From positions 1-44,125 of the forward strand of contig JANXVC010000012.1 of NCBI GenBank assembly GCA_025351925.1: a stretch of 44,125 nt of DNA, read 5' to 3'. Shown here piece by piece: positions 20,499 through 25,029 of this stretch (positions are counted from its first letter, which is position 1; the number at the start of each line of letters is the position of its first letter). The notes under the pieces were generated by a model that was given only the letters and a program-made list of their open reading frames with translations, did no database searches and was not told where the DNA came from. Source of the DNA: Rhodospirillales bacterium (GTDB taxonomy: Bacteria; Pseudomonadota; Alphaproteobacteria; Acetobacterales; Acetobacteraceae). The translations under genes were made by a program, and so were the position numbers.

Positions 20499-20602
20499 CC
20501 ATTCCTCCGTCTCTACCTTTTAAGTGGGGACGGGCGCGGCTTGCGCAAAACCCGCACACGGCACATTTTCACATCTATGCGACATAGAGCGATCTTCGCG
20601 TG

Positions 20603-21376
20603 ATGGACAGTCTCGAAGCGTTGCGAATTCAGATCGAATGGGGCGCGGACGAGGCGCTGGACGACCAGCCGCGCAACCACTTTCTGCCGTCGGCTAAACC
20701 CATGCTGCAGCCTTTGGCGACGCCGTCGGTGCCGAACCTATCGCCACTGCCGATTCGTGCGGCTTTGCCAGTCGCCGCGCGAAGCCAGGCGTTAGCGAAC
20801 TCAGCCGGCACTCTCGCCGACCTGTATGCAGCCCTCGACGCCTTCGACGGCTGCGCGCTGCGGGCCACGGCGACGACGACAGTGCGGCCCGATGGCAATC
20901 CGGCCGCTCGGCTGGTGCTGATCGCCGACGCGCCAGGCGCGGACGATGACCGGACCGGCGTCGCGTTCGCCGGGCTGGCCGGAGCGACGCTCGATCGTGT
21001 CCTGCGCAGCGCAGCGCTCGATCGCAACAGCATGCTGCTGACCCATCTCGTGCCATGGCGTCCACCTGGCGGCCGCGCGCCGACCGAGGCTGAGATCCAA
21101 GCCTGCCTGCCCTTCCTGCTTCGCCTGCTGCAGCTGGTCCGCCCGGACCGGCTCATCCTGCTGGGCTCCGCGCCGGCCAGGGTGCTGACCGGCAGCAGCG
21201 ACAGCATTCGGCGGCTGCGCGGACGCTGGCTCGAGGCCGCGCCGCCCGGCTTCGATACGCCCATACCTGCATTGCCGATGCTGCCATGGGATCAGTGGCT
21301 CCGTAGTCCAGCGGCCAAGCGGGATAACTGGGCCGACCTCCTTGCGCTCCGGGACAAGCTGGACGCAAATCCTTAA
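20603..21376 (+). CDS. Uracil-DNA glycosylase family 4-like protein with altered catalytic motifs
   Basis: The fold is that of the family 4/5 uracil-DNA glycosylase superfamily, visible from RLVLIADAPGADDDRTG, LLTHLVPWRPPGGRAPTEAE, PDRLILLGSAPARVLTG and LRGRW. Several diagnostic residues differ. The GEAPG motif reads ADAPG. The four Cys that hold the 4Fe-4S cluster in family 4 are not present (only isolated Cys in DGCALR and ACLPF). The C-terminal HPA/HPS motif, normally before LLR.P..K, is replaced by LPWDQWLRSPAAKR with no His. A related FeS-less group is known in alphaproteobacteria. This copy may bind DNA or abasic sites rather than excise uracil. Start ATG 20603; GTG 20600 is possible. 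Confidence 0.8.
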   Translation: MDSLEALRIQIEWGADEALDDQPRNHFLPSAKPMLQPLATPSVPNLSPLPIRAALPVAARSQALANSAGTLADLYAALDAFDGCALRATATTTVRPDGNPAARLVLIADAPGADDDRTGVAFAGLAGATLDRVLRSAALDRNSMLLTHLVPWRPPGGRAPTEAEIQACLPFLLRLLQLVRPDRLILLGSAPARVLTGSSDSIRRLRGRWLEAAPPGFDTPIPALPMLPWDQWLRSPAAKRDNWADLLALRDKLDANP

Positions 21377-21406: not shown

Positions 21407-21949
21407 GTGCCGATCGACGAGAGCCGCCAGTTCATCCCAGTCAACATCGCCGTGCTCACCGTATCCGATACGCGGACCGCCGCAGATGACCGGTCCGGCG
21501 ACACGCTGGCCGCCCGGATTGTCCAGGCCGGGCACCATGTCGGCGCCCGCGCGATCGAGCGGGACGACGCTGGCCTGATCGAGACCCGGCTGCGCGGCTG
21601 GATCGCCGATCCCGCGATCGACGCCGCCATCACGACCGGGGGCACCGGGATCACCGGACGCGATGTCACGCCCGAGGCATTTGACCGCGTGCTGGAGAAG
21701 CGCATCGAGGGCTTCGGCGAGCTGTTTAGGATGCTGAGTTACCAGAAGATCGGCACCTCAACGATGCAGTCCCGCGCCCTCGCCGGCGTCGCCGGGGGTA
21801 CATACCTGTTCGCTCTGCCGGGAAGCACGGGCGCGGTGCGGGATGCGTGGGACGATATTTTGGTTTGGCAGCTCGATAGCCGGCACCGTCCCTGCAACCT
21901 GGTCGAGCTGATGCCGCGGCTGCAGGAGCATCTTCGCGCGGCGGAATAG
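21407..21949 (+). CDS. moaB: Molybdopterin adenylyltransferase-type protein MoaB
   Basis: MoaB/MogA-family enzymes adenylylate molybdopterin before molybdenum insertion. The protein shows the family motifs: VLTVSDTRTAADDRSGD near the N-terminus, TTGGTGITGRDVTPEA with the substrate-binding GGTG loop at ~70, and FALPGSTGAVRDAWD near the C-terminus. At 180 residues it matches MoaB. The start is GTG 21407 behind an AGGAGG-like site (GACGGAGG). It follows the glycosylase-like gene by 30 bases. It may be in the same transcript, but the pathways are not related. Confidence 0.92.
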   Translation: MPIDESRQFIPVNIAVLTVSDTRTAADDRSGDTLAARIVQAGHHVGARAIERDDAGLIETRLRGWIADPAIDAAITTGGTGITGRDVTPEAFDRVLEKRIEGFGELFRMLSYQKIGTSTMQSRALAGVAGGTYLFALPGSTGAVRDAWDDILVWQLDSRHRPCNLVELMPRLQEHLRAAE

Positions 21950-21970
21950 GATCACACACACAAGCAAAAA

Positions 21971-21985
21971 GTTCTTATTCCGTTC
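21971..21985 (+). promoter_or_regulatory. LexA-type SOS box (GTTC-N7-GTTC) at the radical SAM gene promoter
   Basis: The sequence GTTCTTATTCCGTTC is a perfect copy of the direct repeat GTTC-N7-GTTC that alphaproteobacterial LexA binds (established knowledge). The second GTTC touches TTGACT (21986-21991), a good -35 hexamer; the matching -10 is weak (CAAAGT near 22010). The site is about 60 bases before the ATG of the PA0069-type gene and 22 bases after the moaB stop. LexA bound here would cover the promoter. The setting is AT-richer than its surroundings. Confidence 0.75.
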
Positions 21986-22043
21986 TTGACTTTGTCTAGT
22001 TGAACTTGGCAAAGTGCGCTTGGAACGCATAGGGAACAAGTAT

Positions 22044-23243
22044 ATGCCGGACGGGATTATCCCAGATGGAACTCTCGCCGAGCGGCAGTTGCAGCGGAGC
22101 GCGTTGGATCAGGATGCCTTGGCGGCGTTTGCTCAGGCCGGAATGCCAGACGCTGAGCCGACCGGAACTCAGCGTTCCGCAATACGCCGTGGTCGAGGCG
22201 CCACGACAAATCCTGGCGTGCGCTATGACCGCCACATGGCGGAGCCGTTCGAGGACGGATGGGCGCTGTTGGGCGCCGAACTCGCTGAGCTGCCGCCACT
22301 TCCGACAACGCTGACGAGGGACGCCAGCAAGACCGCGATTAGTTGGAACGGCAGCCCGGACATCGGTTTCGACCGTGCGGTCAATCCTTATCGCGGCTGC
22401 GAGCATGGCTGCGTGTACTGCTACGCCCGGCCCAGCCACGCCTATCTCGGCTACTCGCCGGGCCTGGAGTTCGAGACGCAGATCGTCTTCAAGCCCGATG
22501 TGGCGGCCCTGCTGGAGCGGGAACTGCGCAAGCCGGGCTATGTGGCGCAGTCGCTGGCGCTGGGATCGAACACCGATCCCTATCAGCCAGTGGACCGCAC
22601 CCTGCGGCTGACGCGCGCCGTGCTGGAGGTATTGGACCGGTTCAGCCATCCTGTGAGCATCGTGACCAAGTCCGCCGGCGTGCTGCGGGACCTGGACATC
22701 CTACAGCGCTTGGCGTCCCGCGGGCTGATACGGGTCTGGCTGTCGGTTACAACGCTCGACGCTGCGTTGGCGCGGCGCATGGAGCCGCGGGCCGCGACGC
22801 CGTCGCGGCGGCTGCAGACGATTGCGGCATTGGCTCAGGCTGGTGTTCCCGTCGGGGTGCTGGCGGCGCCGATGATTCCGGGATTGAATGACATGGAGCT
22901 GGAGAACATCCTGGCCGCCGCCCGGCAGTATGGCGCAGCGCATGCCGGCTATGTGCTGCTGCGCCTGCCGCTCGAGCTGCGGGAGATGTTCACCGCCTGG
23001 CTGCAGGAGCACGTGCCGGACCGGGCGCGGCGCATTCTGACGCTGATCCGGGAGACGCGGGCCGGCGAGCTGAACGACAGCCGCTTCCATCACCGGTTCA
23101 GCGGCGGCGGGCCCTACGCCGACCTGCTGGCCCAGCGTTTTACGCGCATGCAGCGGCAGCTTGGCTTTCTGGGCCGCGACGCGCTGGACAGCAAGCAGTT
23201 CAGGCTCCCGCCGGCCCGAGGGGATCAGCTCTCGCTGCTGTAG
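22044..23243 (+). CDS. PA0069 family radical SAM protein (SPL-related)
   Basis: A radical SAM enzyme of the PA0069 group, related to spore photoproduct lyase. The cluster motif is in NPYRGCEHGCVYCYARP (Cys at ~119, 123 and 126; CxxxCxxC). The conserved RGATTNPGVRYD segment lies upstream and SLALGSNTDPYQPVDRTLRL follows. Residues 60-100 and the C-terminal ~60 are family-specific. The reaction is not known. ATG 22044 gives 399 residues; GTG 22014 is possible but has no better ribosome site. A LexA box overlaps the promoter, and the next genes are rnhB and ccrM. This supports a role in DNA damage or DNA maintenance, which is an inference. Confidence 0.88.
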   Translation: MPDGIIPDGTLAERQLQRSALDQDALAAFAQAGMPDAEPTGTQRSAIRRGRGATTNPGVRYDRHMAEPFEDGWALLGAELAELPPLPTTLTRDASKTAISWNGSPDIGFDRAVNPYRGCEHGCVYCYARPSHAYLGYSPGLEFETQIVFKPDVAALLERELRKPGYVAQSLALGSNTDPYQPVDRTLRLTRAVLEVLDRFSHPVSIVTKSAGVLRDLDILQRLASRGLIRVWLSVTTLDAALARRMEPRAATPSRRLQTIAALAQAGVPVGVLAAPMIPGLNDMELENILAAARQYGAAHAGYVLLRLPLELREMFTAWLQEHVPDRARRILTLIRETRAGELNDSRFHHRFSGGGPYADLLAQRFTRMQRQLGFLGRDALDSKQFRLPPARGDQLSLL

Positions 23244-23267: not shown

Positions 23268-23900
23268 ATGGGGCCCGATTTTGAGCGCGAGTCGCGGCAT
23301 GGCGGTCGAGTGGCAGGGGTGGACGAGGCCGGACGCGGCCCGCTGGCCGGGCCGGTGGTCGCCGCTGCGGTCGTTTTCCCGGCCGGTGTTCCCGCCTCCC
23401 TTCGACCGCTATTGGATGACTCAAAAAAACTGAGCGCCCCAGCGCGGCAGGCCGCGTTCAACGCATTGCAGCTCTGCGGCCAGGCGGAAATCAGCGTTGC
23501 CGCCGCATCGGTGGACGAGATCGCCCGGCTCAACATCCTGCATGCCTCATTGCTCGCCATGCGCCGGGCAGTGCTTCGCCTGCCGAACCCGCCAGACTTC
23601 GTATTGGTGGATGGCAACCAGGCGCCGCGCCTGCCGTGCCCGGTGGAGTGCTGCGTCGGCGGCGATGCCTCGTCGCTGTCCATCGCGGCCGCCTCGATCG
23701 TGGCGAAGGTGGTGCGCGACCGGGTGATGGCCCGTTTGGCAGTGCGCTACCCCGCCTATGGCTGGCTGGCGAACGCCGGTTACGGCACCGCGGCGCATCG
23801 CGCGGCGCTGCATCGAGTCGGACCTTGCCGGCACCACCGCGCCGCCTTCGGGACCGTCCGGATGCTGCGGAGCGTCGCCCGCGCGGCAGAGGCGGATTGA
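23268..23900 (+). CDS. rnhB: Ribonuclease HII
   Basis: RNase HII cuts RNA in RNA-DNA hybrids and starts removal of single ribonucleotides from DNA. The active-site residues are visible: [19 protein letters not shown] with Asp19 and Glu20, LVDGNQAP with Asp115, and a further acidic residue in [13 protein letters not shown]. At 210 residues it is the normal size. It starts 24 bases after the radical SAM stop and is followed by ccrM after about 50 bases. The rnhB-ccrM order is common in alphaproteobacteria. No oddity was found. Confidence 0.95.
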
Positions 23901-23952: not shown

Positions 23953-25029
23953 GTGGAAATAGCTCGTGAACTGCCGTTGGACCAGGTGCTGCTCGGTGAT
24001 TGCGTACCCCTGATGGGCATGCTGCCGCCGGCGTCGGTCCACTGCGTCTTCGCCGATCCGCCGTACAATCTGCAGCTTCGCGGCGAGCTGCGGCGTCCGG
24101 ACGACAGCCTGGTGGACGCGGTGGACGAGGATTGGGACCAGTTCAGCGATTTTGCCGCCTATGACGCATTCACGCGGGACTGGCTCAGCGAGTGCCGGCG
24201 ACTGCTGCGCAAGGACGGCACGATCTGGGTCATCGGCTCCTACCACAACATCTTCCGCATCGGCGCCATCCTGCAGGACCTGGGCTTCTGGATCCTGAAC
24301 GACGTGATCTGGCGCAAGTCCAACCCGATGCCCAACTTCCGCGGCCGCCGCTTCACCAACGCGCATGAGACGCTGATCTGGGCGGCGCGCGGCCGGGACA
24401 GCCGCTACCGCTTCAACTATCAGGCCATGAAGGCACTGAACGACGACCTGCAGATGCGCAGCGACTGGTTCCTGCCGCTATGTACCGGGGCCGAGCGCCT
24501 GCGCAACCAGCACGGCCTGAAGCTGCATCCCACACAAAAGCCCGAGGCGCTGCTGCATCGCGTGCTGCTCGCCAGCACCTCGCCCGGCGACATCATCCTC
24601 GACCCGTTTCTCGGCACCGGCACCACGGCGGCGATGGCCAAGCGGCTACACCGCCATTTCATCGGCATGGAACGGCACCCAGCCTATGCCGAGGCGGCAA
24701 TCGGCCGCGTATGGCGGGAGAAGCCGGCCTCGGTGGCAGGCATGGCGGCCAGCCCGACCAGGCGCGAGGCGGTCCGGGTCCCATTCGGCAGCCTGGTGGA
24801 ACGCGGGTTCATCGCGCCGGGGGCTGCGCTGTTCGACAAGCAGCGCCGGGTCACCGCCACGGTGACGGCGGACGGCACGCTGGTGTCCGGCGCCATCCGC
24901 GGTTCGATCCATCAGGTCGGCGCCATCGTGCAGAACGCGCCGAGCTGCAACGGCTGGACGTTTTGGCACTTTGAACGGGCGGGCGCGTTGCTGCCCCTCG
25001 ATACGTTACGGGTCGACTCGACACTTTGA
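23953..25029 (+). CDS. ccrM: CcrM-type DNA adenine methyltransferase (GANTC)
   Basis: CcrM methylates adenine in GANTC late in the alphaproteobacterial cell cycle. It is a beta-class methyltransferase: the catalytic DPPYNLQL is N-terminal (residues ~35-42), the SAM loop DPFLGTGTTAAMAKRL follows at ~217-232, and a C-terminal domain (from ~265 to SIHQVGAIVQNAPSCNGWTF) is the extension specific to CcrM. The recognition site is inferred from family. The track start (23758) overlaps rnhB. GTG 23953 gives 358 residues, which I recall as the Caulobacter CcrM length. TTG 23944 is another option. The gene ends one base from the oppositely directed AI-2E-type gene. Confidence 0.93.
   Translation: MEIARELPLDQVLLGDCVPLMGMLPPASVHCVFADPPYNLQLRGELRRPDDSLVDAVDEDWDQFSDFAAYDAFTRDWLSECRRLLRKDGTIWVIGSYHNIFRIGAILQDLGFWILNDVIWRKSNPMPNFRGRRFTNAHETLIWAARGRDSRYRFNYQAMKALNDDLQMRSDWFLPLCTGAERLRNQHGLKLHPTQKPEALLHRVLLASTSPGDIILDPFLGTGTTAAMAKRLHRHFIGMERHPAYAEAAIGRVWREKPASVAGMAASPTRREAVRVPFGSLVERGFIAPGAALFDKQRRVTATVTADGTLVSGAIRGSIHQVGAIVQNAPSCNGWTFWHFERAGALLPLDTLRVDSTL

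Follow-up and report, generated by a model that had tools for sequence, protein, structure and literature searches.

Two predicted LexA operators flank the putative promoter of a PA0069-family radical SAM gene in Acetobacteraceae

Results

Organization of the radical SAM locus

The analysed DNA, hereafter the window, is a stretch of 44,125 nucleotides from a Rhodospirillales bacterium of the Acetobacteraceae (contig JANXVC010000012.1). In this window, moaB ends at 21949 and the ATG of a radical SAM gene lies at 22044, and the 94-bp gap between them contains two perfect LexA-type boxes (GTTC-N7-GTTC). The radical SAM gene is followed by rnhB and then ccrM, as the initial annotation had stated, with the last gene now described as ccrM-like. 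The features are listed below.

21971..21985, + strand: LexA box 1, GTTCTTATTCCGTTC, a perfect GTTC-N7-GTTC that ends right at the -35 element and whose position is kept in relatives
21986..21991, + strand: -35 element TTGACT; in all 71 distinct Acetobacteraceae pairs, box 1 is directly followed by TTGAC
22007..22015, + strand: predicted extended -10, TGG plus CAAAGT (hexamer at 22010-22015, 18 nt past the -35), from aligned-column preferences
22023..22037, - strand: LexA box 2, GTTCCCTATGCGTTC on the - strand and GAACGCATAGGGAAC on the + strand, a perfect GTTC-N7-GTTC that begins at about +1
22044..23243, + strand: PA0069-family radical SAM protein, 399 aa, C119-x3-C123-x2-C126 (NF033668, PF04055, alignment of 45 homologues)
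23268..23900, + strand: rnhB, ribonuclease HII, 24 bp past the radical SAM gene (NF000595, 225 bits against a cut-off of 167)
23953..25029, + strand: ccrM-like adenine methyltransferase, start GTG 23953 or TTG 23944, about 50 bp past rnhB (PF01555 and RAMA)

The radical SAM protein shares the cluster motif of spore photoproduct lyase but is probably distinct from it

Profile searches placed the protein in the PA0069 family of radical SAM proteins, in agreement with the earlier assignment. The rSAM_PA0069 model (NF033668) was matched over positions 1-348 of 348 with a score of 470.4 bits against a cut-off of 360, and the protein also matched Radical_SAM (PF04055). The next-best NCBIfam model, that of the Rv2578c family (NF038135), reached 207 bits, which is below its cut-off of 430. 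In Tsukamurella, a gene of the Rv2578c family is closely preceded by CGAACGAGATGTTC, whose spacing exceeds that of the common actinobacterial LexA site by one base; because of this mismatch, we do not claim LexA control of this actinobacterial cousin. Distant PA0069-like radical SAM genes were also observed in records of archaeal bicaudaviruses (Bicaudavirus) and of gut phages (Dulem virus 36).

The initial annotation had described the protein as related in motif to spore photoproduct lyase (SPL). The CxxxCxxC cluster motif is common to both proteins, and the top PDB match of the predicted fold was SPL (4fhc; E 9.3e-7, TM 0.47-0.54, 18% identity). Since the structure model was moderate, with a mean pLDDT of 71.8 and values below 50 around the cluster, this match speaks for the superfamily more than for the reaction. 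A search of solved structures with the single protein sequence found no significant relative, and a search with the alignment gave weak matches only, the best being SkfB (E 0.01). On the other side, the Pfam SPL profile (PF20903) was not reached (11 bits against a cut-off of 27, E 0.2). Additionally, the only invariant cysteines among the 45 homologues, and also among 111, were C119, C123 and C126. The best cysteine column outside the cluster was occupied in 71 of the 111 homologues and holds a serine in the present protein. SPL uses a catalytic cysteine, C140 in 4fhc numbering (named in PDB mutant entries), which we take to be the hydrogen donor; its equivalent was judged here from the conservation of cysteine columns.

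These observations bear on whether the gene encodes a true, SOS-controlled SPL that repairs spore photoproduct by the SPL mechanism. The fold match, the shared cluster and a Tyr or Phe beside the third cysteine would fit such an enzyme, as would the name splB given to the gene in the literature. However, residue 127, which occupies this Tyr/Phe position, is Phe in 37 of the 111 homologues, so the exchange is tolerated, and both the SPL profile and an invariant cysteine beyond the cluster are missing. To our knowledge, these bacteria do not sporulate, which we also counted against a true SPL. We therefore rejected SPL membership on the profile and cysteine tests and regard a true SPL as unlikely; the protein is probably an SPL-like yet distinct radical SAM enzyme that acts on DNA damage.

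Two LexA boxes bracket the predicted core promoter

The initial annotation had reported a perfect GTTC-N7-GTTC that abuts a TTGACT -35, and box 1 (21971-21985, + strand), directly followed by 21986-21991, is exactly this arrangement. The single box is real but only half of the picture, as box 2 at 22023-22037 on the - strand had been missed. The two boxes, whose starts are 52 bp apart, are the only exact GTTC-N7-GTTC matches in the 44 kb, against a chance expectation of 0.85.

Across the whole genome, we counted 125 exact matches, compared with 96 for a reversed-pattern control. A lone exact match is thus weak evidence in this genome, where chance matches are common, and judging a box by the genome-wide count was rejected, as most exact matches are due to chance. 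For the present pair, chance was ruled out because the boxes are paired and conserved.

The promoter elements between the boxes were predicted from 71 distinct Acetobacteraceae pairs. Counted from box 1, the aligned columns revealed a preference for G at 36 (71%), C/A at 38/39 (61%) and T at 43 (64%), and a -10-like C-A-N-N-N-T preceded by G was enriched 17 nt beyond TTGAC. A consensus promoter scan reported no promoter in this region, and the predicted -10, CAAAGT, is weak. The predicted transcription start lies at about 22022. Because GTG 22014 lies upstream of this position, ATG 22044 is more probably the start codon of the radical SAM gene.

The spacing between box 1 and box 2 is 50-51 bp in 62 of the 71 pairs and 49-52 bp in 69 of them, which sets box 2 on the predicted transcription start. 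Box 2 also includes AGGGA (22031-22035), a likely Shine-Dalgarno sequence. The two boxes are thus predicted to bracket the core promoter, with box 1 set against the -35 and box 2 lying over the putative start and the Shine-Dalgarno sequence.

This overlap raises the question of whether box 1 is the sole working operator and box 2 is kept mainly as a Shine-Dalgarno sequence, GGGAAC, with the remainder subject to drift. One box suffices in most alphaproteobacteria, and some Roseomonas relatives have kept box 1 while their box 2 has decayed; together with the likely role of AGGGA in ribosome binding, these cases favour a single operator. Yet a Shine-Dalgarno sequence does not require GAAC, the upstream half-site of box 2, and both half-sites are perfect at a fixed spacing across dozens of genera. 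Moreover, box 2 has an internal preference of its own, an A at -9 in 98% of the 71 pairs. We consider a single working operator improbable and two operators the better description of this promoter.

The boxes are conserved upstream of the radical SAM gene

The comparison of homologous upstream regions, which had been proposed as a check on the LexA site, supported it: nearly all alphaproteobacterial orthologues carry GTTC-N7-GTTC. Upstream of 111 distinct homologues, we counted 3.8 boxes per kb, compared with 0.019 per kb in the remainder of these loci, an enrichment of about 200-fold. Because the upstream value pools every locus and either orientation, it is an underestimate if anything. Once the strand was corrected for loci on the minus strand, nearly every homologous locus had a box.

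We scanned 150 Acetobacteraceae genomes for a twin pattern, a box followed after 31-41 nt by an inverted box. It was found in 77 of them, once per genome, with 0 control hits among the matches listed. Among the 35 genomes surveyed for both the gene and the pair, the exact pair was present in 20 of the 25 family genomes with the radical SAM gene and missing in the other 5, whereas it was found in 0 of the 10 without the gene. When 30 twin-box loci were fetched, the radical SAM gene lay beside the boxes in 28, and the remaining two are cut off by the end of the contig after at most about 170 nt.

Alphaproteobacteria outside the Acetobacteraceae have one box, and the TTG of the -35 lies inside its spacer in 40 of 51 cases. 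TTGAC after the box was found in 1 of these 51, compared with 67 of 74 Acetobacteraceae, the two groups being set from record titles and kinship labels. Relative to the box, the -35 of Acetobacteraceae is thus displaced by 11 bp, one helical turn, and a predicted second operator lies on the far side of the core promoter. The shift of the -35 may have brought about the gain of box 2.

Outside the alphaproteobacteria, we examined 18 Pseudomonadota genomes that have the gene. In 11 of them, CTGT-N8-ACAG, the different LexA motif of gamma- and betaproteobacteria, lies 42-95 bp ahead of the profile match; some non-alpha genomes have no LexA site before the gene. An Aeromonas caviae record likewise has the box CTGTATATATAAACAG upstream of its PA0069-family gene. 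As the same target is kept across a change of repressor and motif, LexA control of this gene has very likely been selected.

The same data bear on the view that the boxes are chance occurrences, or sites for another regulator with a GTTC half-site. The many chance matches to GTTC-N7-GTTC in the genome lend this view some weight, but the roughly 200-fold enrichment across genomes and the substitution of the other LexA motif outside the alphaproteobacteria bring it close to refutation.

The link to rnhB and the ccrM-like gene is patchy

The gaps of 24 bp and about 50 bp suggest that an SOS transcript may run from the radical SAM gene into rnhB and the ccrM-like gene, and co-transcription of rnhB and then the ccrM-like gene with the radical SAM gene is possible. 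A search for promoter or terminator evidence separating the three genes yielded just two terminator-like sites, both within rnhB and at chance level. The methyltransferase scored 610 bits with DnaMtaseCcrMCaul (NF050803), under the equivalog cut-off of 830, so the name CcrM denotes likeness only. We also considered whether ccrM has its own promoter with a CtrA site and rejected this, as no TTAA-N7-TTAA was found near ccrM.

Among relatives, rnhB was adjacent (within 250 bp) in 13 of 102 and within reach in 11 more, and ccrM lay on the same strand in 15, in scattered gene orders; these counts are lower bounds, as many of the fetched stretches are short downstream. Judged from these gene orders, the rnhB-ccrM link is a local arrangement that is patchy elsewhere, and on this ground we rejected the idea that SOS control of the two genes is conserved. 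An enzyme acting on RNA, protein or a cofactor might nevertheless sit behind an SOS promoter if a neighbour, rnhB or ccrM, were what needed the promoter. Both neighbours lie within about 50 bp here and recur in scattered orders elsewhere, as such an explanation would expect. However, loci that lack rnhB and ccrM still have the box at the radical SAM gene, and the adjacency of rnhB in only 13 of 102 relatives makes a neighbour-driven SOS link quite improbable.

LexA boxes elsewhere in the genome

LexA is encoded in the same genome (contig C538; TIGR00498, 169.6 bits against a cut-off of 110.95). In the stretches of this genome that were read for candidate sites, we found GTTC-N7-GTTC boxes before lexA, recA, parC, parE, an ImuA-like gene and the gene of a family-4-like uracil-DNA glycosylase. 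In particular, both genes for topoisomerase IV subunits, parC and parE, have a box immediately upstream (contigs C78 and C103). The box of the family-4-like glycosylase gene (contig C361, stretch positions 984-998) separates it from a divergent neighbour resembling folK; the other uracil-DNA glycosylase gene, within the window (20600-21376), has no box. On contig C83 (stretch positions 703-728), two LexA boxes overlap, built from three GTTC half-sites spaced in steps of 11 bp. The gene downstream of them encodes an S24-type (LexA/UmuD-like) peptidase domain and what looks like a helix-turn-helix at the N-terminus; its product may be a second LexA-like repressor, or one of phage type, under SOS control.

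Discussion

We conclude, with a probability of about 0.87, that LexA controls the PA0069-family radical SAM gene of this bacterium. The proposal that the enzyme belongs to the DNA damage response is supported by comparative evidence, namely the boxes before orthologues and the other LexA motif outside the alphaproteobacteria, and the gene very probably forms part of that response.

SOS control of the gene is not in itself new. In 2012, splB was predicted to be LexA-controlled in alpha- and betaproteobacteria (PMC3323433), and SplB (COG1533) is stated to be SOS regulated in several species (PMC8565304). Upstream of the PA0069-family genes of S. meliloti and P. denitrificans, we found GTTCTTGCTTTGTTC and GTTCTCTAAATGTTC, respectively. 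As both species are included in the 2012 study, the splB of that study is very probably the same gene. The earlier prediction and these two boxes mean that the central claim of the initial annotation was largely known. The LexA motif in PMC3323433 is the same as that found here. That study is concerned with multi-chromosome species, with Acetobacteraceae absent, and treats the product as a photolyase. In contrast to the present locus, twin convergent operators are not described in its accessible passages, and the study gives no splB control in gammaproteobacteria, whereas the Aeromonas caviae gene has CTGT-N8-ACAG.

The gene is not mentioned in the accessible portions of papers on the LexA networks of Caulobacter and Dinoroseobacter. 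A search of the accessible literature for PA0069 together with LexA found nothing. PA0069 is said to be possibly among the genes in the P. aeruginosa SOS transcriptome of Cirz in 2006. The same kind of search did not find the twin-operator promoter, most subscription papers being outside its reach. The E. coli lexA promoter likewise has two LexA operators (PMC9210283). Those boxes are palindromes, whereas the boxes described here are direct-repeat sites in opposite orientation, 50-52 bp apart, that flank the core promoter. What is new here is the twin-operator design and the evidence against a true SPL.

The following model, from LexA binding and dual blockade to induction, read-through and DNA-lesion chemistry, is inferred. 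In undamaged cells, one LexA dimer would occupy each GTTC-N7-GTTC box. With box 1 at the -35 and box 2 at the start and ribosome-binding site, RNA polymerase would be excluded from both sides. Upon DNA damage, RecA-driven self-cleavage of LexA would vacate both operators and the radical SAM enzyme would be made; RNase HII and the CcrM-like methylase would probably be co-expressed by read-through. The radical SAM enzyme would most likely work on damaged DNA or nucleotides by means of a 5'-deoxyadenosyl radical, as SPL does, and would differ from SPL by its lesion or by its hydrogen-return step. We regard the double-operator mechanism as likely, and DNA-lesion chemistry as somewhat better than evenly supported. 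A broader proposal, which we put forward tentatively and at slightly less than even odds, is that the PA0069 family is a widespread SOS-induced DNA-repair group of radical SAM enzymes without a thiol hydrogen donor, with a chemistry unlike that of SPL, and that the two-operator promoter of Acetobacteraceae arose as the -35 moved 11 bp from the ancestral box.

With its twin operators, the promoter is a compact natural experiment through which the re-positioning of LexA operators after a promoter shift can be examined. For the family, the label 'splB photolyase' should not be taken literally, and apparently consistent LexA control in Pseudomonadota, under two LexA motifs, would narrow the job of PA0069-family enzymes to the handling of DNA damage.
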